DNA of 59,529 nucleotides from a virus. Below the pieces are notes generated by a model. It ran no database searches. It saw only the letters and a list, made by a program, of their open reading frames with translations, and was not told the origin of the DNA. Position 1 is the first letter of the stretch; the number at the start of each line of letters is the position of its first letter. Positions 1,739 to 34,702 of the stretch are shown one piece after another. The stretch lies in IMG/VR virus record IMGVR_UViG_3300010885_015984, positions 1-59,529 of that record; one strand, 5' to 3'. A program made the position numbers and the translations under genes.

Positions 1739-1749
1739 GGAGATAGGCA

Positions 1750-3799: not shown

Positions 3800-3800
3800 A

Positions 3801-4760: not shown

Positions 4761-4761
4761 T
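4732..4761 (+). promoter_or_regulatory. Consensus sigma70 promoter before queE
   Basis: TTGACA (4732-4737) and TATAAT (4756-4761) both match the full bacterial consensus, with an 18-base spacer. It lies inside the last codons of the AbrB-like gene. The expected start of transcription, about 7 bases after the -10 box, falls on or next to the A of the queE ATG (4767). The resulting RNA would have no leader for queE, but would serve the genes after it. Confidence 0.7.
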
Positions 4762-4766
4762 ATATT

Positions 4767-10002: not shown

Positions 10003-11199
10003 TTACCAAGTTTTGATATCGTACTCATTAGCAAGTTCTATAAAGTACGGAAGTGTTTGAAAAAGATTTTGTTTGCGTAAGGCATCAAAATCTTTTTGTT
10101 TTTTGAAAAACTCTTTTACTGTTCCTAGTTGAATGTTATTTTTATTACTCAACGCTTTTTTATAATAATTTGTTAGTTCTTGTATCCTATTATAAGGATC
10201 ATGTAATACTGAAATATCTTTAATGGCAGTTTCTAATATATGTGACGGTGTTAAGTCAATATAGTTGCATCCGGTTACTGGTATAAAATAAAAAGATAAA
10301 TTTTTATCAATGTCTTGTATTTTAGTAATGAGCGTAGCAATATTACCTGCGTTTAGATTTTGTGCAGTAACAGCAATACCTGGAATAATATTTCTAGTTT
10401 CAGATGCAATCTCATTAACTTTTTTAAGATTGTTGTACACTTTATTCCACGACCCTGGCCAGCGTATATATTCGTATACTTCATCAGAGCCATCAATACT
10501 TACACTCATCTCAACTAGCTTAAATTTTGCCCAGCGTTCTAAATGTTTTTCTACATCAGTATGTAAGTTAGTACTATAATGTATTGTAACATTTTTAGCT
10601 CGATCTAATTTAATTAGCAACTCTAAAATTTCATCATGAAAGTCGTTAATTAACGGTTCGCCACCAAGCAGATATATACTTGCCAAATTTGGTGCTTGAT
10701 TAATTAATTCTAAAATTTTATCTTTTGCAGATCTATCAAATTCAATAGTTGTTGTAGTATCTTTTGTATACTTTAATTCAATATATTGTTTAGCTAATAA
10801 CGAACTACTGCCTGGATGGCACATACGACATGCTAGATTGCATTTATTTCCAAGACTTATGTCAAGATAACGAATGTTTTCATATCCAATTGTCTTTGAA
10901 AATCCCTTAGGAGATATTGTATGTATTCCATGATCAGTGTTTTCATTAGCAATGTGTCGAAAACTTTTATTACCAATGTCTTCCATTTTCCAACATCTAT
11001 CGCAAATTGGATCTTTTTTATCTTGTAACAATGCTGAGCGTAATCTTTGAATCGATGAATTGTTTATAAGTCCATTAGTGTTAATTGTTTGTACACTTTC
11101 AGCAAATACTCCAGCGTCAGAATTACAACACTGTCTTAGTTTTCCAGCAGGATCTATACTAACGCTATTAAATGGTAACGAACAAATTACATTATTCAT
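10003..11199 (-). CDS. Radical SAM enzyme with N-terminal twitch/SPASM-like motif
   Basis: 398 residues from the ATG at 11199, which overlaps the stop of the upstream gene; a GTG/ATG further upstream (11226) is less likely. Two Cys groups come first: Cys6, Cys24-Cys25 (KLRQCCNSD) and Cys66-x2-Cys69-Trp (ICDRCWKMED), which look like an auxiliary Fe-S site. The radical SAM motif follows: CNLACRMC (Cys120, 124, 127), then LLGGEPLIN and a SAM-binding region with VSIDGSDEVYEYIRWPGSW. It probably cleaves SAM to a 5'-deoxyadenosyl radical that acts on a peptide or sugar substrate. It is the last gene of the eleven-gene late operon. Confidence 0.85.
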   Translation of the reverse strand: MNNVICSLPFNSVSIDPAGKLRQCCNSDAGVFAESVQTINTNGLINNSSIQRLRSALLQDKKDPICDRCWKMEDIGNKSFRHIANENTDHGIHTISPKGFSKTIGYENIRYLDISLGNKCNLACRMCHPGSSSLLAKQYIELKYTKDTTTTIEFDRSAKDKILELINQAPNLASIYLLGGEPLINDFHDEILELLIKLDRAKNVTIHYSTNLHTDVEKHLERWAKFKLVEMSVSIDGSDEVYEYIRWPGSWNKVYNNLKKVNEIASETRNIIPGIAVTAQNLNAGNIATLITKIQDIDKNLSFYFIPVTGCNYIDLTPSHILETAIKDISVLHDPYNRIQELTNYYKKALSNKNNIQLGTVKEFFKKQKDFDALRKQNLFQTLPYFIELANEYDIKTW

Positions 11200-12442
11200 T
11201 TGGTGTATCCCAGTCCTTAGGATCAAAATAAGAATCTTTCTTTTCGCCTAGTTCACCAAAATCCAGTCCATTAAATTCAACTCCACAACATTGTCCGCAT
11301 TTAGCAGGACGCATTGATTTGTTTCCATTAGCGTCCCAAGTATCGGGAATCCACTGTTGAAATATATCTAATTGTAGAATGTCATAAAGATTGTTTTGAT
11401 GCATGTTTAGCTTATCAACTCCGCCCTGGAGTTCTATCATATTAACATAATTTTCATCGCGATCTTTTACCTTTGTATCAACAAAAGGTTCTGAACCTAA
11501 AAAGCAGCAAGGAGAAACATGTCCATTAGCACTGATATAAATTTCGTTAAATGGTTGATGATCCCTAGCATTTTTTACAGCTCGGCATGCTATTGATAAA
11601 TCTGTTAAATCAATTTCACGCCATTTACCATCAACAAATCGCATGTCGGTATTTTTTACACCTAACATATTTTTGAAATCTTCTAACTTAATACTTTGAT
11701 ACTTGCTTTGTTTGAAATACGTAGCATCTTCAAAATTATGTTTGAATCGGTCTTCATTGGGCTGTTTTAGATCGTATAGATACTTGCCCTTCCAGTATAC
11801 AGGATATATTCCTTGTTTTTCTTTCTTAAATATACCTTTGTATGACGACCATCTAGTTGTTCTTTTAACATTAAAATTCTTAAAGCCCATTTCTCTTGCT
11901 AAGGTACGTGCTTCTTCAACTTGATGCTCGTTGTGTTCAAAAACAATATAATCCCAATGTGCTATGCCGCCAGCATCTATAAATGCTTTGGCATTTTCCA
12001 TTATTTTTTTCCAATTAGTATTGCGTCTATATAAATGGTTAGTGTCTTCAAGCCCGTCTAAACTAAAAGTACAATAGTTGCCTTTATTCTGATCGCCACG
12101 CATTACAGCACCTAGTCTTGCCCACCATGCCGGTGTACGCAAACTACCGTTAGTGTTACATGCAAGCCCTATGCCCGGATTTATTTCTCTACAATACTCG
12201 TATATGTCTACAAATTCTCTACAGGCACAAGGATCACCAAAGTTACCGCAAGCTAATATCTTCCATAGTCCTTTGACAAATTCTTCTGGCCAGGATTTCT
12301 TAAAACTTTCTAACGTCCATTCTGTGTTGACCAGTGTTGAAATTTCATTGCCTTTTTCATCGTATCTTGGACACATAGGACATCCGCTGTTACACTTGTC
12401 TGTGGGTTCCCAATGTACTTGTGTTATATCACCTTTCCACAT
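11192..12442 (-). CDS. Radical SAM/SPASM-type enzyme
   Basis: 416 residues. The order is canonical: CNSGCPMC (Cys17, 21, 24) at the N-terminus, then ACGNFGDPCA (in the place of the GGEP-type SAM loop), FSLDGLEDTNHLYRRNT, and at the C-terminal end an auxiliary cluster region with CRAV, ISANGHVSPCCFLG and CGQCCG (382-387). This is the SPASM-like pattern of peptide-modifying radical SAM enzymes such as sactisynthases and mycofactocin/PQQ maturases. The substrate is not seen. It has a different build from the other four radical SAM proteins in the operon. A 7-base gap separates it from the preceding gene. Confidence 0.85.
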   Translation of the reverse strand: MWKGDITQVHWEPTDKCNSGCPMCPRYDEKGNEISTLVNTEWTLESFKKSWPEEFVKGLWKILACGNFGDPCACREFVDIYEYCREINPGIGLACNTNGSLRTPAWWARLGAVMRGDQNKGNYCTFSLDGLEDTNHLYRRNTNWKKIMENAKAFIDAGGIAHWDYIVFEHNEHQVEEARTLAREMGFKNFNVKRTTRWSSYKGIFKKEKQGIYPVYWKGKYLYDLKQPNEDRFKHNFEDATYFKQSKYQSIKLEDFKNMLGVKNTDMRFVDGKWREIDLTDLSIACRAVKNARDHQPFNEIYISANGHVSPCCFLGSEPFVDTKVKDRDENYVNMIELQGGVDKLNMHQNNLYDILQLDIFQQWIPDTWDANGNKSMRPAKCGQCCGVEFNGLDFGELGEKKDSYFDPKDWDTPNE

Positions 12443-12449
12443 AATAATC

Positions 12450-13652
12450 CTATAAGTATTCTTTCATTACCTGATAAAATTCAGGAAATGTATTTTCAAA
12501 TGATTCGTTTCTGATATTGTCACGCATTTTTATTTCTTGCCAAAACTCTTTCCACGTTGATTCGTTATATTCTGTATTTTCTAAATGGCGGCAAATCATA
12601 TCTCTTTCTTTATGCCATTGTCGAGTTTTATATGCGGACTCGTGTGTATTTAATTTATTAATAATTGTTTGTTTTAATCCAGGTGGAAGAATTCTAATAC
12701 CGTGATGATCATGTACTATATTAATGTATATTGGTATATTCTTTTCTGCATAATGTTCAAACGTTTCAAAAAAATCAAATACGTTAAATGCAGATATTGA
12801 TAGACAAACTCCAATGATCCATTCGGTATTGCTTTGATCTCTAACTGTACACAATTTGTTAATTGTTGATTCTGCAACTTCCCACTTAGCCGGGTGGCGA
12901 AGATATTCAAACTTTGCGCCAACTCCATCGGAGCTGACCTGTATGTCAACTGTCTTAAATTGCTCTAATAGGTCTATATATTTTTCTGGATATATTGTAC
13001 CGTTGGTGTTGTAGTGTATATGCTGTTTTTTACTCCAGCCGTTTTCTACACACATCTTAACTACATCCCAATGTTTTTCTATATAAAAAGGTTCGCCGCC
13101 GGCAAAATCAAACCGTTCTGCATCTGGTAATAACTTAACAATATCGTCCCAGAAAAATTTATTGTCGTAATCAAAACTTTCTTTGAAACTAATCCACTGT
13201 GGTTGATTAATATATTCTTTAGGATTGTTTGGTGATCTGACTTTTGCCTGTTCCATCAACCAAGGCGTAGAATGCCAAGGACTACAAATTCTACATTTGA
13301 TATTACATAAATTGCCCATAGATAAATCTACAACTATGGGCAACATATCTTCTGATAATTCTTTATCCTGATAAGTTTTATTATCTCGAATACGTTTACT
13401 TTCTTTACCTGCTGCTTCTTCTTTCCAACAAGCACTGCATTCAGATATCTGTATACCGTTATTAAGATCTGCAATCATCTGTTTGCGTTTATCACTATTC
13501 CAAAATTCAAGAATAGATGCTTGATTAAGAGTAGTTTTTTTAGAATCTGTTACATATTCTAATGTACTCATACAACACGGCTTAGTTGTGCCGTTAGGTT
13601 GCACACTTAAATTTAAGTATGGATTCACACACCAGGTTGTATTATTTTTCAT
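12450..13652 (-). CDS. Radical SAM enzyme with N-terminal twitch-like motif
   Basis: 400 residues. Cys8 (TWCVNPYLNLSVQPNG), Cys26-Cys27 (KPCCMST) and Cys72-x2-Cys75-Trp (ECSACWKEEA) precede the radical SAM motif CNIKCRIC (Cys116, 120, 123). Then come FDFAGGEPFYIEKHW and VSSDGVGAKFEYLRHPAKW. The layout matches the enzyme at 10003-11199 and suggests a common ancestor. The protein overlaps the previous gene by 11 bases and likely acts in the same pathway as its neighbours, on a peptide or glycan substrate that is not identified. Confidence 0.85.
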   Translation of the reverse strand: MKNNTTWCVNPYLNLSVQPNGTTKPCCMSTLEYVTDSKKTTLNQASILEFWNSDKRKQMIADLNNGIQISECSACWKEEAAGKESKRIRDNKTYQDKELSEDMLPIVVDLSMGNLCNIKCRICSPWHSTPWLMEQAKVRSPNNPKEYINQPQWISFKESFDYDNKFFWDDIVKLLPDAERFDFAGGEPFYIEKHWDVVKMCVENGWSKKQHIHYNTNGTIYPEKYIDLLEQFKTVDIQVSSDGVGAKFEYLRHPAKWEVAESTINKLCTVRDQSNTEWIIGVCLSISAFNVFDFFETFEHYAEKNIPIYINIVHDHHGIRILPPGLKQTIINKLNTHESAYKTRQWHKERDMICRHLENTEYNESTWKEFWQEIKMRDNIRNESFENTFPEFYQVMKEYL

Positions 13653-14997
13653 AGTTATCGTATACGTCTTTACAGAAATTATAAAATTCTGTATATTCTG
13701 GAAATAGCTCTAATAAGTTAGTTCCAAGACGTCGATCATTTTCTGTAAAGAAGCTATAAAAGTCTCTACGGCCTGCACGAATCTTATCTTCTGGAATTGT
13801 TTTAGCCTTCATATAATCTGTTACACGCAGAAACTTTTCATATTCTAAATCACTTAACCATTCACTGGTTTTAATAAACTCTAATGTGTCATCCATGTAG
13901 TGCATGAAATCATCTGTTAAAATATTAATCATCCAGTGCGGTGGTTCTTTAAGATACGGAGTATCAAATTTAATTGCTTCCTTACCAAATTCTTTACGCC
14001 ATTCAATTACTTTTTCTAACAAGCTCTTGAAGTTAGTAACACACAAAACATTAAACGTACACATGAAGTTTACAGTAGTGCCTGTAGCAAGCACAGCCCG
14101 CATATTACGTTCCCAATGCCCACAGTTTAATCCTGTACGCATATATTCTGCTTGTGCCCCCCAACTATCGATACTGGTGTAAAAACTAAATGATTTAATT
14201 TTTTTATTAGTTAATAGTGATCCCACTCGGTCAATTAATCTGTCTACTCGATCAAACGAAACTCCAAGATTACTGTTTAGGCTGATTTCAAGTCCAGGGG
14301 CTGGTTCGTTTTCTAATAAATCAAAGAATTGCATTGCTCCTGGATTCATTAACGGTTCACCACCTGTAATACGCAATGTATGTAAGTCGTTACGTAGACT
14401 TGGCCACCAACGCCAAAACGCTTCTATGTAGGGGTTTTCGTCTTTAGGACCGTAGTACGTTCCTGATTCTAAAAACTCAATTCCATATTGATTATAAGTT
14501 AAATCATAATTGCCGTGTTTCTTAACTTCTTCCATCCACATAGTACTTGCTTGTGGCGCACAATATCCGCATCGATAGTTACAGGCATTACCAAAGCTAA
14601 CTTCTAAATACCGTGGATTAATATTTTGATCCCAAGGTAATTTAGCTACTTCATCAATTATAGGGACACTGAAATCGCTAGCACTATGAATCATTCGATC
14701 ACTGATATGTTCGCCTTCTAAGTCCTCAATGTTCCAACAATACTGACATTCACTTGGTCGCTCTCCTTCTAACATTTTCTTGCGCTGTTCTTTTTTCCAT
14801 TTGGTATTATGCAAGGCACTGGCGTCAATGGCAATTTCATCTAACCCTATGTGATGCGGCCTAGGATGATAACAACTGTGATTATCACCTGTGTGGAGAT
14901 ATAAGGTTTGGTGTAACCATTTCATTGTACAAAAACTAGGACTTATATTGTTCAGCTTATCTCTAACTAGTTTAATATATTGTAATTTATGATCCAT
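13642..14997 (-). CDS. Radical SAM enzyme, paralog of the next gene upstream
   Basis: 451 residues. N-terminal SPSFCTMKWLHQTLYLHTGD with Cys23, then SCYHPR (Cys42), IAIDASALHNTKWKKEQRK, and Cys84-x2-Cys87-Trp (SECQYCWNIED). Radical SAM motif CNYRCGYC (Cys139, 143, 146); RITGGEPLMNP; SIDSWGAQAEYMRTGLN. The N-terminal motif differs from the operon's other twitch proteins by having CYH rather than CC. The protein at 14987-16414 aligns throughout, with the same motifs in the same order, so one copy arose by tandem duplication. The C-terminal ~100 residues are helical. It overlaps both neighbours. Confidence 0.85.
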   Translation of the reverse strand: MDHKLQYIKLVRDKLNNISPSFCTMKWLHQTLYLHTGDNHSCYHPRPHHIGLDEIAIDASALHNTKWKKEQRKKMLEGERPSECQYCWNIEDLEGEHISDRMIHSASDFSVPIIDEVAKLPWDQNINPRYLEVSFGNACNYRCGYCAPQASTMWMEEVKKHGNYDLTYNQYGIEFLESGTYYGPKDENPYIEAFWRWWPSLRNDLHTLRITGGEPLMNPGAMQFFDLLENEPAPGLEISLNSNLGVSFDRVDRLIDRVGSLLTNKKIKSFSFYTSIDSWGAQAEYMRTGLNCGHWERNMRAVLATGTTVNFMCTFNVLCVTNFKSLLEKVIEWRKEFGKEAIKFDTPYLKEPPHWMINILTDDFMHYMDDTLEFIKTSEWLSDLEYEKFLRVTDYMKAKTIPEDKIRAGRRDFYSFFTENDRRLGTNLLELFPEYTEFYNFCKDVYDNYEK

Positions 14998-16414
14998 TTA
15001 ATTCCTTACATTCATTCCAAAAAGTTTCTAATTGCGGGAATACATCTATAAAATTTCTATTATTACGAGTATCTTGCTCATTAAAGAATAGATAAAAATT
15101 CTTCATTGCAGTGATTTTATTAAAATTGCTGTCTGCCTTAATCCAATCGATTAATCTTTGTACTTTGCTAACTTCAAAATCCTTAAACCCTTTGTGATGA
15201 TTAAACAATCCTTCACGATTACTTAGCATGTATGCTTTGGCCTCTTCTAATTCTGTAATCATCTCTGGTAATAATTTAGGATTTAAGAAATCTGGATCTT
15301 GTAATTGAGGTATATCAAACCAAATTAATTGTCGATCTTTACTAAACTCTTTTCTTAGGGTATGTATATTTTTAATATATTCTACAAATCCTGTATAACT
15401 TAACGCATTAAAAGTAATAATGAATGTCAAACTATGCTTGTTACTGTTGGCAAGGTAATCTCTTATATTTTTGTGCAGTAAATTAAAATCCATGCCGTTA
15501 CGGATATATTCAGCTTCTATGCCCCACGAGTCTAAACTGCAAAACAACATAAAATGATCAATTGCGTCTTTTTCAGTGATTTTCTTCAATGATATCATAA
15601 ACTTATTCCACTGATTTCCTGGCGGACAGCAATTTGACGTTATAGACAGGTTTAAGTCGGTTTTAGGGTGCTCGTGTATGTAATCGAACATCTTAAAGGT
15701 GTTTTTATCCATTAGCGGCTCGCCGCCGGTCATACGGAAAGTTTGCAGCTTAGGATATACAACAGGCAGCCAATTCCAAAATGCTGTTAGGTAAGGATTG
15801 TCTGGACCATTATCTATATTCAAAGACTTAACCCATGACATGTCATTATGTTTTCTATCAGATAGTACATACGAGCCGTGTTGTTCAATTTCTTGTTGCC
15901 ATGCTGTACTTAAATGTGGGCTGCAATAGCTACACTTAAAATTACAGGCTTGATTAAAGTTTACTTCTACATAGCGTGGAATAGCGTTACCTTCAAACCC
16001 TAAGGCCCGAGCTTCTTCAACTAGTCCGTCTTCGTATACATCCTTACTACGATAGGCACGATCGCTTAACTGTGTACCACTATCTTCTATTTGCCAACAG
16101 AAATTACACTCTGTAGGACGCTTACCTTCGATCATTAATTTACGTTGTTCTTTTTTATGTTTGGTATTGTGTAACGCACTAACATCTATAGCAATTTCTT
16201 CAAGAGGAATTTGATGACTACGAGGATGATAACAACTGTGTGTTTGCCCTGTAGGAATATGTATACTTACGTTAAACCATTTAGCCAAGCAGAAACTAGG
16301 ACTTACTTCATTTAATTTTTCAAACACTGCACCAGCGTCTTGAAAATATTTAGATTGGTATCGTCCGTTAATTTTTACTAACTCGTTTCCTTTGATATTG
16401 TTGTTAATGGTCAT
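14987..16414 (-). CDS. Radical SAM enzyme, paralog of the adjacent gene
   Basis: 475 residues. SPSFCLAKWFNVSIHIPTGQ (Cys42), SCYHPRSHQIPLEEIAID (Cys61), ALHNTKHKKEQRK, Cys103-x2-Cys106-Trp (ECNFCWQIED), then CNFKCSYC (Cys157, 161, 164), RMTGGEPLMD and SLDSWGIEAEYIRNGMD. A sequence of ~20 residues before the first motif is extra compared with the neighbouring copy. It is the first radical SAM gene of the operon in transcription order and overlaps the glycosyltransferase upstream by 11 bases, so sugar transfer and radical chemistry are likely made together. Confidence 0.85.
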   Translation of the reverse strand: MTINNNIKGNELVKINGRYQSKYFQDAGAVFEKLNEVSPSFCLAKWFNVSIHIPTGQTHSCYHPRSHQIPLEEIAIDVSALHNTKHKKEQRKLMIEGKRPTECNFCWQIEDSGTQLSDRAYRSKDVYEDGLVEEARALGFEGNAIPRYVEVNFNQACNFKCSYCSPHLSTAWQQEIEQHGSYVLSDRKHNDMSWVKSLNIDNGPDNPYLTAFWNWLPVVYPKLQTFRMTGGEPLMDKNTFKMFDYIHEHPKTDLNLSITSNCCPPGNQWNKFMISLKKITEKDAIDHFMLFCSLDSWGIEAEYIRNGMDFNLLHKNIRDYLANSNKHSLTFIITFNALSYTGFVEYIKNIHTLRKEFSKDRQLIWFDIPQLQDPDFLNPKLLPEMITELEEAKAYMLSNREGLFNHHKGFKDFEVSKVQRLIDWIKADSNFNKITAMKNFYLFFNEQDTRNNRNFIDVFPQLETFWNECKELNGS

Positions 16415-17450
16415 TATATTTCTCCATTAACCAATCAAAGTCGTTAATCTTTTTTAAGGCTTCAATATTATTTTTGTTTTCTTCCCCGTATTTTTGTCCT
16501 GCTATTGCACCACGATATGCTTCTGATCCAAACTCTACAGCCGGATTTAATTTACACCAAAAGTATAACCTTGCTTGTGTTTCTTCGTTAATTTGGCCGT
16601 TAATAACTTTACTAGATAATTTAACACACTCACGAAACGCAGATTTCCAAGTATTAAAAGGATCAGTATTAAATGCGGTAATGTTTGAAACTGTATCAAC
16701 TGCCTTAAACTTTGTAGAAATACTTGTAGTCATGTCTGCCGAGTTAACATCCATAGTCAATGTTAGCTTGCGAGGTAACAATTTAACTCCGCCATATCCG
16801 TATTCTAAATTGTTTATAGGATTGCGACTACGCCATACGTGTACTGTAAATTTTTCTGGGTCATTAAAATTAAAATTAAAATTGTCAACAATTATAGCAT
16901 CACCATCTACTACCCAGAACATATCTGTAGTAGCTAAATTAGCTGCGGCAATATGTGCTTGATGTATTCCTTTAACACCGTTGACTCGATGTATTTTATT
17001 TGAAGTTACTTTAGATAGTAAGGTTTGAAAATTAGTATCTGCATTGGGCTCATTATAAGAAATAAAAACAATGTCAAAATTTGTATTTTTACTGTCACTG
17101 GCTACAATATCAATTTCTTTTTTAACATTAAAAAATCTAAAATCGTATTCTCTTTTAGAAACGCTGGCAGACTTAGGAAATAAACAAACACCGTTATAGT
17201 GACTTCCATTTCTGAAAACATGAATATACTGTTCGTCCCATTTAGGTACACGATAATCAAATATAAAATCATCATGCACAACTAAATCATCCCAAACTAC
17301 CCAAAACAATTTTGTAAATGCACGTTTTTTTATATCTTCAAACGATACAGCATTTTCTATTTTCTGTGCCGTAGGGAATCGCTGCTTGAAAATATTCCAA
17401 TCTTCATCAGCAATACTGTCCTTACTAACATAAAACAAATCATATATCAT
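16404..17450 (-). CDS. GT-A-like glycosyltransferase with a duplicated half
   Basis: 348 residues. The C-terminal part is like its upstream neighbour: FDIVFISYNEPNAD (125-138), GVKGIHQAHIAAAN, and FWVVDGDAIIVDNFNF with Asp182-x-Asp184 as the metal/nucleotide-sugar DxD, then VHVWRSRNPINNLEYGYGG and KLLPRK. The N-terminal 120 residues repeat that core in shorter form: FWVVWDDLVVHDDFIFDY (49-66), YIHVFRNGSHYNGVCLFPK. So one DxD-like half was probably duplicated inside the gene; the first has WDD, which may bind differently. Donor and acceptor are unknown. It overlaps both neighbours by 11 bases. Confidence 0.7.
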   Translation of the reverse strand: MIYDLFYVSKDSIADEDWNIFKQRFPTAQKIENAVSFEDIKKRAFTKLFWVVWDDLVVHDDFIFDYRVPKWDEQYIHVFRNGSHYNGVCLFPKSASVSKREYDFRFFNVKKEIDIVASDSKNTNFDIVFISYNEPNADTNFQTLLSKVTSNKIHRVNGVKGIHQAHIAAANLATTDMFWVVDGDAIIVDNFNFNFNDPEKFTVHVWRSRNPINNLEYGYGGVKLLPRKLTLTMDVNSADMTTSISTKFKAVDTVSNITAFNTDPFNTWKSAFRECVKLSSKVINGQINEETQARLYFWCKLNPAVEFGSEAYRGAIAGQKYGEENKNNIEALKKINDFDWLMEKYNDH

Positions 17451-18351
17451 TTGGCATTCTATAATATGTAAGACCTAAGTTGATTGTTTCTTCATACAAC
17501 TCTAACATGTATTTGCTTTGTTGTGCATCAAGTGTAGGCCAATCTAATCCTAGGTTTATTTTTATCTTTTCTCCTAATGATTCAATTTCTTCTTTCAGCC
17601 CAGTTCCGTATACTTCTTCAAAAGGTCGACCGTATTGGTTCCATATACCCTTAAGGATTTCAAAGTCCCTAACTTCTATATAATTCCACTGTGTACAATT
17701 TGCTAACCATGTACCTAATCTAGCACCGTATACTGCATATAATCCATTCTCTTCGTGTGCGCCAACCGTTGACCACATACGTAATCTATGGATATTATGC
17801 CACCAAATTTTTTCTTTAATTTCTTGTGCGGGCACTTTCTCGCCATCAAGTAAGGTCATCTTTACACCTTCACGGAATCCTGCCCTCCATGCTTGGAAAG
17901 GACTGCCTGTAATAATGCTTTCACTATAGACCCTAGGGAAATTACGATATCCTTCTTCCCAACAAAAATCAACCTGCGCACGATCGCTTTCGCTGGCTTC
18001 GTGTGTTTTCATGTTAAGGACAAAGTCCTTCTTCCAGATTTTTAATCCACCGTTGCCGTAACGTAGTCCATTAATACTATTGCGGCCGCACCATCCATAC
18101 ACTTGTATTTTAGGATCTGCCATATCTAATTCTAAATTAAAGAATTCACTGTCAACTATATTGTCAGCATCAACTGTAATAAACCAATCAGTTTCGCTTA
18201 GATTAGCAGCAGCCTTATGGGCAGCGTCGCTACCTTTGACTCCGTGTACACGTTTAGCCCAAGGCACTTTATTACACAGGTCAGCATAGTGAAGATCAGC
18301 ATTAGGCTCATCATAAGAAATAAAAACAATGTCAAATTCTATAACTTTCAT
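17440..18351 (-). CDS. GT-A-like glycosyltransferase
   Basis: 303 residues. FDIVFISYDEPNAD near the N-terminus, VHGVKGSDAAHKAAANLSET, and WFITVDADNIVDSEFF with Asp61-x-Asp63, the DxD that binds the divalent metal and nucleotide sugar; then VYGWCGRNSINGLRYGNGGLK and KIWKK. This set of motifs is shared with the 348-residue neighbour. The remaining ~150 residues are helical with Trp-rich sections. No membrane segment is seen, so it acts in the cytoplasm. It starts with ATGA overlap on the 209-residue gene upstream. Confidence 0.75.
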   Translation of the reverse strand: MKVIEFDIVFISYDEPNADLHYADLCNKVPWAKRVHGVKGSDAAHKAAANLSETDWFITVDADNIVDSEFFNLELDMADPKIQVYGWCGRNSINGLRYGNGGLKIWKKDFVLNMKTHEASESDRAQVDFCWEEGYRNFPRVYSESIITGSPFQAWRAGFREGVKMTLLDGEKVPAQEIKEKIWWHNIHRLRMWSTVGAHEENGLYAVYGARLGTWLANCTQWNYIEVRDFEILKGIWNQYGRPFEEVYGTGLKEEIESLGEKIKINLGLDWPTLDAQQSKYMLELYEETINLGLTYYRMPNDI

Positions 18352-18977
18352 AGATCACCCAATACATAATTCTTAAAAATTCGTCTAGTGTATATACTAA
18401 ACCTTTCTGGTAATTCAATATTCTCAAATATTTTTTTCTGTTCTACTAAATCAGCTACTGTAAGAGTAATCATTGTGTACAAAACATTTGGATCATTATA
18501 ATCTGTAATCAATAACTTCATTGTTGTATCGCCACTCCAAATAACTTTTCGCTTATTGACCGGTTGAAATTTTTCTGCTAATTTTTTTGTTCCGTGAAAC
18601 TCTTCTGTAAGTTCAACAGTCAATGTGTTTTGCGATTTATCGTAAGTAATGTAGATATCGGCTTTGTCAAATTCCGCCCACTTAGTTTCAACTACACGAT
18701 GCAACACATCGTCAATCTTAAAAACTGATTTTATCTCTGCAATTTCTAAAGTGTTACCTGTAATGTCAACAAAGCAGGAATTAATTCTAATCTTGCCTTC
18801 AATTATTAATTCAGCCGTTTCTTTATCTAAAGGGATTTTATATGGCTTGTTTTCAAATGCGTGTGAAGGCCCTACACTTTTTACTTCACCTGTTTCTGGA
18901 TCAAATACCGCAACATATGAAACTTCAGGAAGTTTAATGTTTCGCAGAAATTCTTCAAAATCAATTATTTCTTCCAT
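18348..18977 (-). CDS. Unknown protein between the glycosyltransferases
   Basis: 209 residues. No motif of an enzyme is visible. The N-terminus carries YVAVFDPETGEVKSVGPSHAF, and there are repeated strand-rich stretches (KADIYITYDKSQNTLTVELT; TMKLLITDYNDPNVLYTMI), which suggest a beta-sandwich or a structural/adaptor protein. 'FDPETGEV' is also similar in style to segments of tail proteins. Its place inside the glycosyltransferase/radical SAM operon, overlapping both neighbours, makes it a candidate substrate, carrier or adaptor of the pathway, but that is inference only. Confidence 0.55.
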   Translation of the reverse strand: MEEIIDFEEFLRNIKLPEVSYVAVFDPETGEVKSVGPSHAFENKPYKIPLDKETAELIIEGKIRINSCFVDITGNTLEIAEIKSVFKIDDVLHRVVETKWAEFDKADIYITYDKSQNTLTVELTEEFHGTKKLAEKFQPVNKRKVIWSGDTTMKLLITDYNDPNVLYTMITLTVADLVEQKKIFENIELPERFSIYTRRIFKNYVLGDL

Positions 18978-19804
18978 GCAATTTCCTCTAAGATATTAAT
19001 TGTTTCTGCGGTAATTTTATCTTTCTCAACATAATGCACAATATCATACTGCTGGTAATTGCCAATTTTCAAATGACCTTGCCGATTAAAATAAAAGCCT
19101 ACATGGTTACTCCACTTGTCTGACGGCCACGGCCAATTCTGTACTAGTGGTTTCATGTGAACTACTCTAGGAAATTCCAGAGGATATGCAATTATATCTT
19201 GTATGTCTAGTATCTTTGCTGCCAAAGCAAATGCTTCATCGGTCCCTACAATTTTAGGTTTGAATTCTGATAAAAACAAATTACTAAATTCTGTAGGATT
19301 TTTTATAATAGCTCGGCCTAATGTAAAAAATTCTGTTACCAGCTCTGAGTCTTTCTTAAAGAATGTATAAAAACTATACAAGTTAGGTAATTTATTTTTT
19401 GTAAAAGTTCTACGATAGTCGTCACTGATTACCAATTCATTTCTATAGGTATATGCTTTATTAGATATGTATAATTCTGCATTTTCAATAAAGTAATCAA
19501 TCCAATGACTGTAATCTTTTAGAAACAGCATATCAGCATCAAGGCATACTGTATTTTCAAATGGTGTTAGTTGATCCATCCAACTGCGGCCATCCCAAAA
19601 TGTTTCTTGATCCCACTCAATTACTTCATCAAACACCCAAGCAGATTTTAATTCTGATACTGCTTTAGAATTGTTAGTAACCAATGCTACTTGATCGTAT
19701 CCTGGTTTTTGAGTATTTTTAATACTCAATGCTAGTGCATAGGCCATCTGAAGATAGTCATGTTCTGCGTTTTCAGAAATAATTATTAAATATCCAAATT
19801 TCAT
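18965..19804 (-). CDS. GT8-like glycosyltransferase
   Basis: 279 residues with a Rossmann-like start (GYLIIISENAEHDYLQMAYA) and VALVTNN, then FENTVCLDADMLFLKDYSHW, where Asp89-x-Asp91 is the DxD motif of GT-A retaining transferases such as glycogenin/LgtC. A region GTDEAFALAAKI matches the second conserved acceptor/donor loop of that family (usually 'DQDa.N'). VVHMKPLVQNWPW near the end resembles the C-terminal 'H.....KPW' signature. Likely transfers a hexose from a nucleotide sugar; the acceptor is unknown. It is coupled by ATGA to the gene before it. Confidence 0.75.
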   Translation of the reverse strand: MKFGYLIIISENAEHDYLQMAYALALSIKNTQKPGYDQVALVTNNSKAVSELKSAWVFDEVIEWDQETFWDGRSWMDQLTPFENTVCLDADMLFLKDYSHWIDYFIENAELYISNKAYTYRNELVISDDYRRTFTKNKLPNLYSFYTFFKKDSELVTEFFTLGRAIIKNPTEFSNLFLSEFKPKIVGTDEAFALAAKILDIQDIIAYPLEFPRVVHMKPLVQNWPWPSDKWSNHVGFYFNRQGHLKIGNYQQYDIVHYVEKDKITAETINILEEIAWKK

Positions 19805-20664
19805 ATTAATGATAATAGAGCCTCTGCATTCCTTATTATACTTTGTTTATTCATAATATGCAAGTCCATTCCTGTTATTGCAGCGGCAGAATAATTGGAA
19901 TCCATATTATATGCGATTAAAAATGTTAATTTGCCTTGACTATCTACACTATGTAATATGTCTTTATCCATAGTTGTTAGTAATGGTGGCAAGCTCATAG
20001 CTGTTGAAGTTTCAAATCCATCTAAAATATGTTTGGCCACACTAAAAGCTATGTCATTTCGATATTGCCTACTATCAAATCTAAAAATATCTGCATAGTA
20101 TTCATAATTGTTTTTAACATATTCAATCATATCAAATAATGACCTACTTCGATCGTTTTTAGTAAACATCACGGTAGTTGCCCAAAACAGATGTACGCCA
20201 GTATCGGAAACATACTTGTCGTGATACCCTAATCTTTTTTGATCGTAGATATCATTTGCTGAATTAGCAATTAAAATATCTTCATCTAAATTCCAATATT
20301 CATCTAACTTATTAGAAAAAATTAAATAATCACTGTCTAATAACAACGTACGATCATATGGAGTTAATTCCCAAACACTATTTCTATTTGTGTTTACAAA
20401 AGGAATTATTTTGTTAACCCCACCATCATGCAATCTTCTGCTATTGGTAGTTTTGGGTTTTTCTACTGTAATAATTTTATCAAAGACTTCAACTGCACGT
20501 TCATAAGTTTTGGAAGTTTGCATCCATTCAATTGTTGATGCATCTGTGATTAATGAAACAGGAATATTTAGATGTTTTTTAGCAAGCCCGCCAGAAATTA
20601 CTGCCAATAAAGCGTAATCAATATCTCTGCTATTGTGTGCAAAAATTATTGCGCCGCGGGTCAT
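19801..20664 (-). CDS. GT8-like glycosyltransferase
   Basis: 287 residues. GAIIFAHNSRDIDYALLAVI, VSLITDASTIEWM, then ELTPYDRTLLLDSDYLIFSN with Asp110-x-Asp112, the DxD position. The order of strands and the region FDSRQYRNDIAFSVAKHIL resemble the GT8 family and the neighbouring gene, but overall similarity is lower. The last ~60 residues (from LPPLLTTMDKDILH) may be a separate strand-rich cap. Like the other transferases in this operon it lacks any membrane anchor. The start overlaps the stop of the 116-residue gene (ATGA). Confidence 0.7.
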   Translation of the reverse strand: MTRGAIIFAHNSRDIDYALLAVISGGLAKKHLNIPVSLITDASTIEWMQTSKTYERAVEVFDKIITVEKPKTTNSRRLHDGGVNKIIPFVNTNRNSVWELTPYDRTLLLDSDYLIFSNKLDEYWNLDEDILIANSANDIYDQKRLGYHDKYVSDTGVHLFWATTVMFTKNDRSRSLFDMIEYVKNNYEYYADIFRFDSRQYRNDIAFSVAKHILDGFETSTAMSLPPLLTTMDKDILHSVDSQGKLTFLIAYNMDSNYSAAAITGMDLHIMNKQSIIRNAEALLSLI

Positions 20665-21011
20665 AGGCTTAATAATTTCTCTACAGATCTACTTTTTTTA
20701 AGTTCTTGATATTGTTCGTAGTATTCTAAAGTAGAAGTAAAATATCTGTCTAAAATTTCATCGCGAAATTTTTCAAGATCGTCAATTAGAATTGGATTTT
20801 CATTGGCGTCAATTAACGGTACTCCTACCTTGCGGTCTTGGTCAATTAACAGTTGAACAAACGCAATTAATGATCGATCAATCTTAAAGATACCGCCATT
20901 AATGCCATATGTTAATTTGGCATCAGTTTTTTCTTTAAGGGTTTTTCTTTGGATCGAAAAGGTTTGACGATAATTTGAAAACTCAAGAGCTTTTTTGAGT
21001 TGTGGTTCCAT
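20661..21011 (-). CDS. Small protein, first gene of the late glycosylation/radical SAM operon
   Basis: 116 residues. Predicted mostly helical with Lys/Glu-rich stretches (LKKALEFSNYRQTFSIQRKTLKEK; KFRDEILDRYFTSTLEYYEQYQELKK). In the middle is TYGINGGIFKIDRSLIAFVQLLIDQDRKVGVPLIDANENPILID, which is likely a small fold. I recall similar proteins near tail genes in T4-like phages, function unknown. It follows the exact late promoter TATAAATA and the hairpin at 21017-21063. Ribosome site aggag lies in that hairpin. Confidence 0.6.
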   Translation of the reverse strand: MEPQLKKALEFSNYRQTFSIQRKTLKEKTDAKLTYGINGGIFKIDRSLIAFVQLLIDQDRKVGVPLIDANENPILIDDLEKFRDEILDRYFTSTLEYYEQYQELKKSRSVEKLLSL

Positions 21012-21016
21012 GGATT

Positions 21017-21063
21017 CTCCTAATTAACATAGCACTTTATTTATAATGCTAGTTTATTAGGAG
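21017..21063 (-). promoter_or_regulatory. Ribosome-site-hiding hairpin with an internal late promoter
   Basis: In minus-strand RNA, a 12-base arm starting CUCCUAAU (21063-21052) pairs with a 12-base arm ending AUUAGGAG (21028-21017), with 11 of 12 pairs formed. A further inner stem of seven pairs (UAGCAUU with AGUGCUA, one wobble) is set off by one bulge, leaving an 8-base loop AUAAAUAA that holds most of the late promoter. The AGGAG ribosome site of the 21011 gene is fully paired at the base of the stem. There is no U-run after it, so it is not an intrinsic terminator. Confidence 0.7.
21038..21045 (-). promoter_or_regulatory. Late promoter, exact TATAAATA, for the eleven-gene operon
   Basis: On the minus strand the box reads TATAAATA, an exact match to the T4 late core. 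It ends 27 bases before the ATG of the 116-residue gene (21011). The box lies in the loop of a long hairpin, so a transcript started there (about 21032) would lack the left arm. No -35 element is needed for gp55-type promoters. Confidence 0.7.
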
Positions 21064-21075
21064 ATATGTATGTGA

Positions 21076-23709
21076 TTATACTTCTGTAGCTAATAATGCA
21101 AACGAACCACTAGACATTGCTGATGTTCCGGCGTCAGTATACATTTCTACGTCTAGACGTATTACGGTACCAATTGCCATAATATATGGTCCTTGCACAC
21201 CAGAAACACTTCGAGTAGTAGCGGTTCTTACACCACCATCTGCAAATGTATAAATGTCAGTGCCAATTACCAAGCGATAGTTGATAATTCGATTACTAGT
21301 TGCTGTAATTGATACTGAAAATCTAGCTGTACCGCGGCGTGTACAAGTAATACTACTAATTGTTTGCCAACCTGCTCCAGACACGTTTGATACTGATCCT
21401 GTTATAAAGGACACGCTGGTGCTAGCAGTTATTAATCGTAATGCTGAAGTATCTTGGATAGCAATTGATTGACTAGTTGCCAATACTGTAGTTCCTGATT
21501 TCAATCTTACTACAAATGATTCTAAATCTTCTGTTGCTACATCGTTAACTAAAGTTTTACTAAACGATCCAGCACTGCTAGTGACAATTCCTGAATTGGT
21601 TAATGTTCCGTCAGTAAAGTCTGCTCCAGTAACATTAGTTCCAACAATTTCATATGTATATGTCCCGTCTGGAATAAAATACCCGCTGATATAGAAACTC
21701 ACCGTGCCGCCTTCGTTAACTGATGTTACAGACGGTGTTATTAAGTATACTGGCACACCTGCAGTTGTCAAGTCGCTGATTGTTACTGCCGGTGACTCAA
21801 CTGTAAATGTTCCTGTCCCGGACGGTTGAAGAACTCCAGTAGCTTCATAGGTATTAACTGCCAAAGTCAGCGTACCATCAACTTGGTCGCCAGGCGATGG
21901 GTTTTCTGGAACTGCTGGTCCTGGATCAACATATCCGTCAATCCATTCTACTAAGAATTCAATCACAGTTGCAGTACCTAAAATGTTTATAGGTACGCTA
22001 GGAGTTCTAGCCGATATTCTAAATACGTTAGATGTATATGGGCTAGATGCCGTCGAAGTTGACCAAATTTGATAGGTGCTGGTTAATCTATAAAAATTGT
22101 TGCCGTTGGCAGGGGCTGTTCCCGTGCTTGGTTTATTGCCACCAAACGCTTTTGGTGTTACTGTAGTTGGGCTTAATAAATTAGTCCATGCTGTATTTTG
22201 TTGGTGGCCCGGAGTTGGACTTGTTGCGCCACCTGTTCTTGATGATGCAAATCTAATTTCGCCGCCGCTATTAAAGAAATATCTAGCTTGAGCTGCTGAT
22301 GAAAAACTTACCTGCACTATTGATGATACTGTACCATTCCAAAATGTACCTAACGTTGCAGACGGCCATGTATGTGATTTAGATCCTTTGGCGGTAGTAC
22401 TTGCTTGACTAACTGCAACACTAAATTTATTAGTGGTTAATGTGTTGGCAAATGCATCATATTGTGAATATGGGTATTCTGTTGCACTTGCTAATGTTAA
22501 CGATCTACTGGCTAATGTTTGTGATGTGCTGGTAGTCCATGTGCTTCTGCCCCACGGATTTGTTGCCATCGATGCCGTTACTGTCGTTGTTCCTGTTCCG
22601 TATGCTAGCTTGAATATTACTGTACTAATTGGTGTTGACCCGGGAGCAGCACTTAATAATATCATTGTATCATTTATTACACTACTAACAGTCTGTGAAG
22701 TAAACCCTGCACCTGCAATGCTCATTCCCGGAAGAACTCCTACTGTACTAGTAACTTTTAATCGAGTACCTGCAGATCCAACACTAAATGATCCAGTGGT
22801 TGAGGTAGAGGAAAAAGGATTACTTATATTAATAGCATAATAATCGTCACCAATTGATGTAGTTGCTGTTGCTATTGATGTAATAGTAGTATTAGCTGGT
22901 ATGCCTGTTCCTGATATGCCGTTGCCTACCGCAAACATACCGCTGTAATTTGCATTATTAAAATTAGTTACAGACATGTAGAATATGCTTTTACCTACAA
23001 ACACTCTGTTTGGCCCCAACGATGATAATGTACCGGTTGCGGTATATAGCGGCTCAGGCGAAACTGTAATATTAGTAGCAACCGTAGATATTACTGTTCT
23101 TTCCGGATCGGTGTCATACTTTAATGTTAGTGAGGTTGTTGTACTGGCCGTTGCTGCAAATGTGCCGTTAAATGTTGCATTACTATTACCGGCAACAGTG
23201 TATGTTAATCCTGTTTCTAATGCTAATGGTTCTGCTGGAATTGTATATGCTACATAATACGGACCGGTGCCTGTTTTGCTAACAAAACTTGAAATTGTAA
23301 TTGGTGTTTGTGCAGCCGCCGCTGTTATTGTTGGAGTTCCCACAATTCCTGTTCCAGAAATTGTTTGGCCGACTGTAACCATTCCTGAGGTTACTCCGTA
23401 CACGATAAGACTTGTTCCAGATCTTGCAGCAGTAATTATTGTAGTGTCAATATCCGATTTAATAATGTTGTTTAATGTAGCAGAAGTTGCACCTGCTGGC
23501 ACAGCACCTGTTTGATGAACATAACAATTTACAATATCGTAATATAGTTTACCCCATTCGTTAATTGTAATGTTGTTACTGTCGGTTACTGCGGTGCTTA
23601 ATATAGTTTGGCCGTATCCAGAGTCTGCAGATCCTGGACCTAAAATAGTAATTACTTTAGTTCGAATATCATTATAATCTGCTGTTTGTATTTTTTTATT
23701 TACGGTCAT
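21076..23709 (-). CDS. Large Ser/Thr-rich tail protein with Calx-beta-like domain
   Basis: 877 residues. The N-terminal ~70 residues (DYNDIRTKVITILGPGSAD, GYGQTILSTAV) and residues ~425-645 (NTLTTNKFSVAV to FTVESPAVTI) match the 308-residue protein upstream, including YFFNSGG and SSPYTSN. Between them lies a ~350-residue Thr/Ser-rich insertion of repeated strands. Residues ~655-755 look like a Calx-beta/Ig-type domain (VTSVNEGGTVSFYISG, TLTNSG, FVVRLKSGTTVLATSQ), and the last ~120 form another strand-rich domain. Probably an adhesin or tail decoration protein that binds the host surface. A weak GTTAAATA box lies 25 bases before the ATG. Confidence 0.7.
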   Translation of the reverse strand: MTVNKKIQTADYNDIRTKVITILGPGSADSGYGQTILSTAVTDSNNITINEWGKLYYDIVNCYVHQTGAVPAGATSATLNNIIKSDIDTTIITAARSGTSLIVYGVTSGMVTVGQTISGTGIVGTPTITAAAAQTPITISSFVSKTGTGPYYVAYTIPAEPLALETGLTYTVAGNSNATFNGTFAATASTTTSLTLKYDTDPERTVISTVATNITVSPEPLYTATGTLSSLGPNRVFVGKSIFYMSVTNFNNANYSGMFAVGNGISGTGIPANTTITSIATATTSIGDDYYAINISNPFSSTSTTGSFSVGSAGTRLKVTSTVGVLPGMSIAGAGFTSQTVSSVINDTMILLSAAPGSTPISTVIFKLAYGTGTTTVTASMATNPWGRSTWTTSTSQTLASRSLTLASATEYPYSQYDAFANTLTTNKFSVAVSQASTTAKGSKSHTWPSATLGTFWNGTVSSIVQVSFSSAAQARYFFNSGGEIRFASSRTGGATSPTPGHQQNTAWTNLLSPTTVTPKAFGGNKPSTGTAPANGNNFYRLTSTYQIWSTSTASSPYTSNVFRISARTPSVPINILGTATVIEFLVEWIDGYVDPGPAVPENPSPGDQVDGTLTLAVNTYEATGVLQPSGTGTFTVESPAVTISDLTTAGVPVYLITPSVTSVNEGGTVSFYISGYFIPDGTYTYEIVGTNVTGADFTDGTLTNSGIVTSSAGSFSKTLVNDVATEDLESFVVRLKSGTTVLATSQSIAIQDTSALRLITASTSVSFITGSVSNVSGAGWQTISSITCTRRGTARFSVSITATSNRIINYRLVIGTDIYTFADGGVRTATTRSVSGVQGPYIMAIGTVIRLDVEMYTDAGTSAMSSGSFALLATEV

Positions 23710-23745: not shown

Positions 23746-24672
23746 TTAGGAGGCCGTGATCGATGATATTGAATACCCTGGGCTAGTTATGCTAAAAGAT
23801 CCGCTAGGTAACATAGATCCAGATGCTTTAACTTCGTCAATTTGGATTTTTAAGGTACCGTTAACTGTATCGTATGGCGGCGATAGTACATCAATGTCAG
23901 TATAATCATCGCGCCATGTTACTCTAAATGTAATTGTACTAGCTGTTCCGTTAACATTGGTTGGATCTGTACAATTACATAGTGCTTCTATGGCATAGTA
24001 ATTTGCAGAATACGGTGAACTGGCTGTTGTTTGATATACTGTTTGATATGCTGTTGTAAGAGTATAAAAATTAACAATTACAGGAGTAATTGCACCAAAA
24101 TTAATCGTACCAATTGTAGTGTTTAATAAGTTATACCATGCATTATATTGTGATGTTGTTGTACCGCCCGACAGTGTACTTGTAAATCTTAATTTTCCAC
24201 CACTGTTAAAAAAGTATCTAGCTTCATCAGCATTTGCAAATGTTACTGTAAGTGTGCATTGACTTTGAGTACTCCAAGATCCAGTTCTTTCTTGACTAAT
24301 TGCTGATGACAGAACTGATTGCCCGTCACCGATACTAAATTTATCTGTAATTGCCTGTTCTGAAATAGTGTCGTAATTAATATTAGGAAATCCGGGACCA
24401 TACCCAATGTATCCACCTGCTTCAATTATTGACGGCAAGACTCCGTCTTGATGCACTTTAGCATTTATAATATCGTAACGTAATAAATCCCACTGTAATT
24501 TTGTGATATTATTTCCAGAAAATACAGCAGAACTAGCAACTGTTTGCCCGTATCCACGCTGCCCTGATCCTGATCCCAATATCGATACAATTTTATTACG
24601 GATTTCCGTATAGTCTAAAGGAACTATTCGTTTCTGACTATCTGGTACTGGTAGCGAGTCAAACTTAGGCAT
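23746..24672 (-). CDS. Tail/adhesin protein, minimal version of the 877-residue neighbour
   Basis: 308 residues. The N-terminus (DYTEIRNKIVSILGSGSGQR, GYGQTVASSAV) is close to residues 11-40 of the 877-residue protein, and the rest aligns with its residues ~425-645 (DEARYFFNSGGKLRF; TTASSPYSANYYAI; VNGTLKIQI). So the two genes share a core and differ by a long insertion and a C-terminal extension in the larger one. It is Ser/Thr/Gly rich, as in virion surface proteins, and lies between tail fibre genes. Probably part of the tail fibre or whisker system. Confidence 0.65.
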   Translation of the reverse strand: MPKFDSLPVPDSQKRIVPLDYTEIRNKIVSILGSGSGQRGYGQTVASSAVFSGNNITKLQWDLLRYDIINAKVHQDGVLPSIIEAGGYIGYGPGFPNINYDTISEQAITDKFSIGDGQSVLSSAISQERTGSWSTQSQCTLTVTFANADEARYFFNSGGKLRFTSTLSGGTTTSQYNAWYNLLNTTIGTINFGAITPVIVNFYTLTTAYQTVYQTTASSPYSANYYAIEALCNCTDPTNVNGTASTITFRVTWRDDYTDIDVLSPPYDTVNGTLKIQIDEVKASGSMLPSGSFSITSPGYSISSITAS

Positions 24673-24673
24673 A

Positions 24674-26458
24674 TTACAGCACCACTGCTTCGACTAATTT
24701 AACCCCTGCATCGTCATTAGATTCTAACGCTACAGCAAATACATCTAATCTATCAGCGGCTACTTGAGCAACTCCGTCGTTGCCTGCTACAAGTCGATCG
24801 CCTTTTTTAACTTCGCCGGCTACCTTAACAGGAACTCGTCCTTTAAGAGCTATATATGTCCCGCCTTCTAAATCTTTGTTCATCATAAACGCTGGGTTTG
24901 CACTTACAACCCCTATGGCTAACTCACCGTAACTTGATGCAGTAACTTCTGCGTTACCGCCAACTACTACTACTGTGCCAACTTCGTATTCTGCATCAGC
25001 TAGATATTTTTCAGCTAAGTCTGCATAGCGAGCTGCGGTAGCTGTTCCTTGAAATAATGACGCATAGATATCGCCGCTTGCATCTCTTGCCGCTACTGTA
25101 TTAATAGTTGCTGTCAATGCTGCTGATCTATATGTACCATCTACTAATAATTGTTTTGCTTGATCAGCAATACCATTAAATTCAACAGCAGAAATGTTTC
25201 CTGAAGAATTTCTAACTGCAACAGATGTTTTATTTGGATCGGTTGGGATTGCAATTGACGGTGGATATGTTCCGAGCAAGGTAGCAGTTCCTGCAGTTCC
25301 TGTAACGTTACCTTGAACGTTACCTATCACTAGTGCTGGTGTTGATACTGTTCCTAATGTACCTAAGAATGTTTTAGTTGTTGCATTGACTAAAATTGTA
25401 CTGTCAGTCGCTACAACATTTCCTGTTAACGACCCTGTAAATACTTTTGTTGCTGCGGTGTATGCTGTCGTATTATCGGCGGCTATTAAATTACCATTAA
25501 ACCCAGTAGCATATACATTTGCCCATTTGTTATCGGCAGCTCCTAGATTGTAAGCATTAGTTATACCTGGCACTATTCCAGTTCTATTCATCACCGCAAC
25601 GTCACGTTCGTCTGTAGCTTCAGTAACTGTTATTCTAAATGTAATTTCATTACCTAATCTGTTTTCAACAATAACTTCGTCACTGTTTTCAACACGAATT
25701 CTTAAATCGTTACCGTCACCTAATTGGAATCCTGGATCTTTGAAACTAATTTCGCTGTCAAATATTACACTACCTTTTTGTAAGTAGTCTGCTGCAAGTA
25801 CTCCGCCTAATCGCAATGCATTAGATGATGTTCCCCAGTATACATAATCATTTTGACTCACACCACTGGTGTTAGTTTCAGTTAATGTAAATCCTTTTTT
25901 AATGCTAGTAAATCCAGTAATTGGGTTAATTGTACTGTTTAAGATGAACGAATCATCACCGTTAACTATTCCTACACACTTACCCGAAGATAATAGTTTA
26001 AGAATTGTATGACTGTTGTTTACATCGTCTTTTACCACCTGTGCAATAACTGAACTTGTACCTAAATCGGGGCTAGCCTCTGGTCCTACTAGTACAAAGT
26101 CTGTTCCAGTATATGTGTATAGTTGCTTGGCAGAACTATCCCACCAAAATTCACCAACTTGTAAACCGCTTGGGGCTGTTATGCTAACTTCTGCACCACC
26201 GGCTACTTTGAATCTAGTACCGTCATAAAATTTTAATCTGCTGGTTGCACTATCATACCAAATTTGACCTTTAATAGTTTTTGGTGGTGCACTGGTATTT
26301 GCAAAATTTTCTAGTAAGTGAAGGAAATTTTCATTCTGTACCTCACCGTAGCCAGCGTAGTTTTTACCTACAAATCGAAGATCCGTAGTACTGTCAATAG
26401 TACCGTCTTCTACAGATGTTAAAAATGTCCCGTTAAATCTATCTACTTGATATGCCAT
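24674..26458 (-). CDS. Tail fibre protein (first of the MAYQ paralogs by position)
   Basis: 594 residues. The N-terminal ~125 residues hold the shared attachment domain seen in three other proteins here: MAYQVDRFNG, a GYGE-x3-ENFLHLLENF segment, KGQIWYDSATSRLKFYDGTRF, GEFWWDSSAKQLYTYTG. The middle is a Thr/Ala/Gly-rich beta-rich shaft with repeats such as FNGNLIAADNTT and TGTAGTATLLG. The C-terminal ~117 residues (ARYADLAEKYLADAEYEVGT to VKLVEAVVL) form a compact domain found at the ends of many phage fibres. It is likely a receptor-binding fibre. A late promoter-like AATAAATA ends 25 bases before the ATG. Confidence 0.8.
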   Translation of the reverse strand: MAYQVDRFNGTFLTSVEDGTIDSTTDLRFVGKNYAGYGEVQNENFLHLLENFANTSAPPKTIKGQIWYDSATSRLKFYDGTRFKVAGGAEVSITAPSGLQVGEFWWDSSAKQLYTYTGTDFVLVGPEASPDLGTSSVIAQVVKDDVNNSHTILKLLSSGKCVGIVNGDDSFILNSTINPITGFTSIKKGFTLTETNTSGVSQNDYVYWGTSSNALRLGGVLAADYLQKGSVIFDSEISFKDPGFQLGDGNDLRIRVENSDEVIVENRLGNEITFRITVTEATDERDVAVMNRTGIVPGITNAYNLGAADNKWANVYATGFNGNLIAADNTTAYTAATKVFTGSLTGNVVATDSTILVNATTKTFLGTLGTVSTPALVIGNVQGNVTGTAGTATLLGTYPPSIAIPTDPNKTSVAVRNSSGNISAVEFNGIADQAKQLLVDGTYRSAALTATINTVAARDASGDIYASLFQGTATAARYADLAEKYLADAEYEVGTVVVVGGNAEVTASSYGELAIGVVSANPAFMMNKDLEGGTYIALKGRVPVKVAGEVKKGDRLVAGNDGVAQVAADRLDVFAVALESNDDAGVKLVEAVVL

Positions 26459-34694: not shown

Positions 34695-34702
34695 TATTTA
34701 TT
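34695..34702 (-). promoter_or_regulatory. Late-promoter-like box AATAAATA
   Basis: On the minus strand the octamer AATAAATA lies 27 bases before the ATG at 34668, the same spacing as at 58693 and 26458. It overlaps the stop codon of the giant gene. If it is used, the shorter start at 34668 is the true start and transcription begins about 34689. Confidence 0.45.

Follow-up and report, generated by a model that had tools for sequence, protein, structure and literature searches.

The host recognition cluster (HRC) of pelagimyophages combines fibre genes with glycosyltransferases (GTs) and radical S-adenosylmethionine (SAM) cassettes, and its authors infer that the GTs modify the O-chain (Zaragoza-Solas et al., 2020, PMC7029224). 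Earlier work had drawn attention to 12 radical SAM genes of unknown function in a marine genome of T4-like type (PMC5332604), and the moraphages, which are uncultured aquatic jumbo phages, have four glycosyltransferase orthogroups in their core genome (PMC12619734). The present analysis concerns IMGVR_UViG_3300010885_015984, a 59.5 kb record of an uncultured large aquatic T4-type phage (59,529 nucleotides, in the following called the window), and in it an operon of 11 open reading frames on the minus strand (positions 10003–21011), which lies downstream of fibre genes and is transcribed in the order p116, GTd, GTc, p209, GTb, GTa, rS5, rS4, rS3, rS2, rS1. We consider it probable, if by a modest measure, that the operon is a late-expressed module for the glycosylation of tail fibres, consisting of a conserved core and an exchangeable tailoring segment. 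Somewhat less assured, and just short of probable, is the broader proposal that it represents a system shared by many phages, by which fibre glycans vary in a serotype-like way, with a fixed p116-GTd-GTc-p209-GTb set tied to one fibre family, exchangeable segments containing radical SAM genes and a rapidly changing number of degenerate GT modules in one transferase.

Related loci, collected independently with rS5, p308 and two queries each for p209 and p116, fell into 91 clusters after removal of redundancy at 70% p116 identity. The fibre-type gene p308 precedes p116 in 88 of them, and p116 is directly followed by GTd in 88; the junction of GTd with GTc is found in 85 clusters, that of GTc with p209 in 75 and that of p209 with GTb in 72, and in 8 further clusters GTb is the next recognised gene after GTc, the intervening gene having been missed by the p209 profile. 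The genes p308-p116-GTd-GTc-p209-GTb are a nearly invariant block, the order of which is kept across very diverged phages (p116 copies down to 34% identity with the marine query were found) and which is present in several hundred aquatic virus contigs. A first-pass annotation, made from the DNA letters and their open reading frames, had proposed the linkage with the fibres and had named a cassette lying far from structural genes in most relatives as the finding that would speak against it; this outcome was looked for and did not occur. The same annotation had treated the GTs and the radical SAM enzymes as one unit, which did not hold: the GT core is constant, whereas the radical SAM genes differ in number, can be exchanged or sit on the opposite strand, and are lacking from some flanks. 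The genes p116 and p209 were never found without the GT core in the fetched loci and therefore belong to the GT function.

Three of the loci (L266–L268) are on contigs filed under metagenome-assembled genomes of Rickettsiales and Gammaproteobacteria. Because homologues of gp6 occur in the same assemblies, on the L268 contig itself and, with 46% identity, on another contig of the L266/L267 assembly, these are phage sequences binned as bacterial; moreover, the L267 contig is as long as a virus contig (46,940 bases) on which p116 is identical to that of L266. Among isolate phages, tblastn searches with p209, p116, GTc, GTb, GTa, p308, GTd and the marine p116 yielded no match. Profile searches of nine isolate genomes with p116, GTb, p308 and GTd were likewise negative, the GTb profile being the one that was run beside a positive control (known carriers matched, three isolates were silent) and the other three having had no positive control in the same run.

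Behind GTb the gene content changes, with GTa or a radical SAM gene usually next. When at least 4 kb of sequence is available behind GTb (57 clusters), a radical SAM gene is nearby in 50 clusters and absent from the flank in 7. At L221, L228 and L238 the radical SAM genes are on the strand opposite to the GT core and converge with it. How the segment is exchanged can be seen from close relatives. For example, between L108/L109 and L121 the fibre proteins share 98% (p594) and 95% (p308) identity and the core proteins 93–98%, whereas GTa falls to 73% and the radical SAM proteins to 30–42%; between L093 and L095, p594, p308, p116, GTd, GTc and p209 are 99–100% identical, GTb 93% and GTa 72%. Fibre and core are retained where GTa and the genes after it have been exchanged. 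A Pfam search of 69 representative segment proteins, which are a sample and no census and most of which gave no listed match, found epimerase/dehydratase, UDP-glucose/GDP-mannose dehydrogenase, C-methyltransferase, B12-binding radical SAM, 2OG-Fe(II) oxygenase and tryptophan-halogenase-like families, each with 1–4 members; GDSL-like esterases appeared below the cut-off in single scans of segment proteins.

Since the transferase core is constant across many phage groups, its acceptor may well be constant too, and the single constant neighbour is the p308 fibre; a phage-made acceptor fits a constant core better than do host surfaces, which are variable. In the mechanism that we propose, GTd and GTc would lay the first sugars on this conserved acceptor, most likely p308 or the related fib877, with p116 and p209 acting as adaptors or chaperones. 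GTb and GTa would then extend the glycan, and the radical SAM enzymes, joined in some relatives by epimerases, methyltransferases and esterases, would alter its sugars. The fibres would in this way acquire a glycan that varies like a serotype and could be exchanged without replacement of the fibre itself. The features concerned are listed in Table 1.

Table 1. Features of the fibre-GT region in the window, in order of transcription, with the evidence for each
Feature	Position	Strand	Evidence or remark
p594, fibre protein upstream of p308, C end like an autoproteolytic chaperone	24674..26458	-	PHROG tail fibre match; sub-threshold Peptidase_G2
p308, fibre-type protein, candidate acceptor	23746..24672	-	constant neighbour of the block, precedes p116 in 88/91 clusters
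fib877, p308-related fibre protein with long Ser/Thr-rich part, candidate acceptor	21076..23709	-	p308-family paralogue in relatives
Late-type promoter box TATAAATA	21038..21045	-	exact match 27 bases 5' of the p116 ATG; position kept in relatives
p116, first gene of the operon, proposed adaptor or chaperone	20661..21011	-	fixed place between p308-family fibre and GTd
GTd, putative glycosyltransferase, DSD motif	19801..20664	-	DxD conserved in alignment; GTc homologue
GTc, putative glycosyltransferase, DAD motif	18965..19804	-	alignment; GTd homologue
p209, C-terminal beta-sandwich, proposed adaptor	18348..18977	-	model pLDDT 84.7; fixed place between GTc and GTb
GTb, glycosyltransferase of GTa type, DAD motif	17440..18351	-	profile match to GTa GT domain, E 1.8e-38
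GTa, GT-A glycosyltransferase with one N-terminal degenerate half-GT module	16404..17450	-	modelled GT-A fold
rS5, twitch-type radical SAM enzyme	14987..16414	-	NF033640, 309.2 bits
rS4, twitch-type radical SAM enzyme	13642..14997	-	NF033640, 298.1 bits; in relatives, the radical SAM gene most often found behind GTa
rS3, twitch-type radical SAM enzyme	12450..13652	-	NF033640, 298.6 bits
rS2, radical SAM enzyme of other build, C-terminal cysteine region	11192..12442	-	Pfam Radical_SAM, 3.2e-8; NF033640, 31.8 bits
rS1, twitch-type radical SAM enzyme	10003..11226	-	NF033640, 270.6 bits

The genes of the operon are tightly packed. Nine of the ten junctions are overlaps of 4–13 bases and the remaining one, between rS2 and rS3, is a gap of 7 bases; this count assumes for rS1 an inner ATG near 11199, which is likelier than the listed TTG start with its 35-base overlap. 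The box ahead of p116 has to be judged by its place, for the bare 8-mer occurs 3 times in the window against 10.8 times expected from shuffling, which is below chance, and its number is thus no evidence; only the conserved position counts. In diverged relatives either TATAAATA or a TAAATA variant is found about 30–36 bases upstream of p116, and in 37 of 90 clusters the 70 bases preceding p116 contain TAAATA, as compared with 2 of 89 for GTd, 1 of 77 for p209 and 6 of 84 for GTb. Judged from sequence, the conserved spacing between the box and the first gene points to late transcription of the T4 type. Much of what the first-pass annotation had said of the layout was borne out: the eleven minus-strand genes, nearly all overlapping; the exact late promoter box at their head, which proves to be conserved in position; and the location after the fibre genes on the same strand, with which the map of open reading frames agrees. 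It had also seen no precursor like those of ribosomally synthesized and post-translationally modified peptides (RiPPs). The overlaps and the 7-base gap leave no space between genes, and the reading as a RiPP cassette was dropped because there is no room for a separate precursor gene.

The main rival to fibre glycosylation, which we hold to be unlikely but worth serious consideration, is that the target of the operon is the host envelope (O-chain or capsule), which it would modify late in infection to block co-infection or to keep progeny from sticking to debris. This is what has been inferred for the similar pelagimyophage region (PMC7029224); moreover, O-antigen loci typically contain nucleotide-sugar and GT genes, and the replacement described above resembles serotype switching. 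Host surfaces differ, however, between phage groups in which the GT core is constant, and p116 and p209 fit no envelope pathway. Hydropathy analysis found no membrane-spanning segment in the 11 operon proteins (the highest 19-residue mean being 1.50), and the operon is thus without flippase, polymerase or ligase, a point that is softened by the fact that cytoplasmic GTs can serve lipid-linked glycans without membrane segments. O-antigen conversion of the Gtr type (GtrABC) was also considered and set aside, there being no membrane-spanning flippase or transferase among the eleven proteins.

Of the four GTs, GTa could be modelled with a pLDDT of 87.8. Its residues 122–260 match GT-A enzymes including B4GALNT1 (Z 11.8, rmsd 2.9 over 138 residues), and D182 and D184 of the DxD motif are invariant; a GT-A fold with DxD is thus found for GTa by the model and for GTb through homology. 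GTc and GTd form a second homologous pair (94% probability, E 1.1e-7), and both conserve the DxD. Family searches with the four proteins gave almost no matches, GTc and GTd having none in Pfam, and searches of PDB sequences with the GTc and GTb profiles were empty or returned chance matches. All four had at first been described as GT-A/GT8 enzymes with DxD. The motif stands, as does GT-A for GTa and GTb, but the GT8 label is not established: the GTd profile matches glycogenin weakly (E 0.1) and the GTc profile not at all, so that a link of GTc and GTd to GT8 is only suggestive. GTa also matched lysyl hydroxylase LH3 over both its parts, but with an rmsd near 10, and this match was disregarded.

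In its N-terminal part GTa repeats, in degenerate form, the first half of the GT domain (97.5% probability, E 8.7e-12); in the window, this repeat has a tryptophan in place of the first aspartate of the DxD. Judged by length and profile matches, the number of such half-modules ranges from 0 to 8 among 133 distinct complete GTa proteins. The GTa proteins at L025:7093-10014 and L034:6757-10011 have 7 and 8 of them, respectively, and at L025 adjacent modules are very alike, as if duplicated recently.

For p116 no Pfam or PHROG match was obtained; the protein has no cysteine and is conserved along its full length. A fold search with p209, which covered residues 104–209 and barely the N-terminal half, found no Foldseek match at E ≤ 0.001, the best hit having a Z of 5.1. 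The original suggestion that p116 and p209 are carriers or adaptors fits their fixed place in the GT block, and the role itself stays a proposal.

As to the radical SAM enzymes, rS1, rS3, rS4 and rS5 exceed the curated whole-protein cut-off of 170 bits for N_Twi_rSAM (NF033640, NCBIfam), a family with an N-terminal twitch domain, and rS2 falls below it; the Pfam radical SAM cut-off is exceeded by rS1, rS2 and rS4, with rS3 and rS5 below. The motif CxxxCxxC is present once in each of the five and in 104 of 105 radical SAM proteins of the cluster representatives. Extra cysteines lie before the radical SAM core in four enzymes and at the C end in rS2, which agrees with the two build types recognised at the outset. 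Because sugar-modifying genes are found in the exchangeable segment, these enzymes probably tailor sugars. An improbable variant of fibre glycosylation should nevertheless be considered, namely that the GTs glycosylate the fibre and the radical SAM enzymes modify its polypeptide by crosslinks or epimerised residues, as do the peptide maturases with SPASM or twitch domains. The secondary matches of rS1 to several radical SAM peptide maturases, weak and all below the cut-off, would be in keeping with this, as would the predicted co-transcription of the operon genes in a place next to the fibre genes. In relatives, however, genes for sugar epimerases, dehydrogenases and methyltransferases occupy the same place as the radical SAM genes, and the latter are replaced under fibres that are 95–98% identical. 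The lack of room for a separate precursor and the nucleotide-sugar genes that the segment carries in some relatives favour a sugar as substrate over a peptide.

Turning to the proposed acceptors, fib877 has the highest content of serine plus threonine (29.4%) among the window proteins measured. Amid the fibre genes (26935–27462, minus strand) there is a gene for a 175-residue protein resembling 2OG-Fe(II) oxygenases, with a weak Pfam match; its homologues, one of which some relatives carry at the same place, conserve HxD and a histidine further along. Hydroxylation of fibre residues by such an enzyme would fit with glycosylation of the fibre.

Further upstream on the minus strand, the fibre genes are preceded by baseplate wedge and hub genes and by the gene for a single 4609-residue virion protein (34698–48527), which has separate PHROG matches to structural, head-closure and baseplate-wedge proteins. 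The closest isolates by the gp6-like protein are the jumbo phages Phosso, Atu_ph07 and SCTP-2 (34–36% identity). Plus-strand genes ending at 10000 converge on the operon, and at 974–5615 on that strand genes for GTP cyclohydrolase I, a QueE-like radical SAM protein, a protein with a phosphoribosyltransferase domain and an HhH-GPD protein are grouped, possibly as a pathway for 7-deazaguanine or DNA modification. Phage GTs often act on DNA, and with GTP cyclohydrolase I and the QueE-like gene in the same window it could be asked whether the operon adds sugars to modified bases. We regard such a role in DNA hypermodification as very improbable: these genes sit in a separate plus-strand block, and the GT core accompanies a fibre gene in almost every cluster and is headed by a late-type box of its own.

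Several points weigh against fibre glycosylation. The linkage to the fibres could reflect a shared hypervariable host-interaction region and a late promoter, with no relation to the substrate, and richness in serine and threonine is common in fibres. One p308-family gene with flanking sequence (L416) is not followed by p116 and the GT core. GTc and GTd are putative enzymes, assigned mainly by their DxD and their mutual homology, and the Pfam-negative majority of the segment genes should also be kept in mind. The acceptor, the sugar and the enzyme activities are what we infer. If the proposal is true, exchange of the glycan on a conserved fibre would offer another way of changing adsorption or recognition, tail fibres of phages being usually thought to vary by sequence. 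A substrate class would also be gained for the many radical SAM enzymes of this group, the function of which is unknown, with the constant fibre gene as the place to look.

Of the systems named at the beginning, the pelagimyophage HRC likewise belongs to the structural part of the genome of a T4-like aquatic phage and is hypervariable, its content differing between related phages, but in the available text it is described without a fixed fibre-GT core (PMC7029224). By definition the HRC lies between VrlC and gp14; in the window there are fibres, GTs and radical SAM genes, and the neighbouring 4609-residue protein has a match to a virion structural PHROG. No match to the profiles of p116, GTb, GTd and p308 was obtained in the pelagimyophage isolate HTVC008M; of these profiles, that of GTb was run beside positive controls. 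The genome with 12 radical SAM genes shares with the window the presence of several such genes in a T4-like aquatic phage, and the accessible portion of its description mentions no link to a fibre-GT block (PMC5332604). Moraphages resemble the window phage in being uncultured aquatic phages with several GTs, and the text describing them does not mention radical SAM enzymes (PMC12619734). Isolates of the Vibrio phage K566 group have several genes of the N_Twi_rSAM type in a row, as in the window, but do not match the profiles of p116, GTb, GTd and p308. In mycobacteriophages, virion proteins are decorated by GTs of the phage (Freeman et al., 2023, as cited in PMC12619734); there the glycan is on capsid and tail tube proteins and was shown experimentally, whereas in the window fibres would be the acceptors and radical SAM genes are involved. 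Within the body of papers searched, no description of the p308-p116-GTd-GTc-p209-GTb block was found. Virion glycosylation and phages rich in radical SAM genes were thus already known, and what is new here is the conserved fibre-GT block together with its exchangeable segment.

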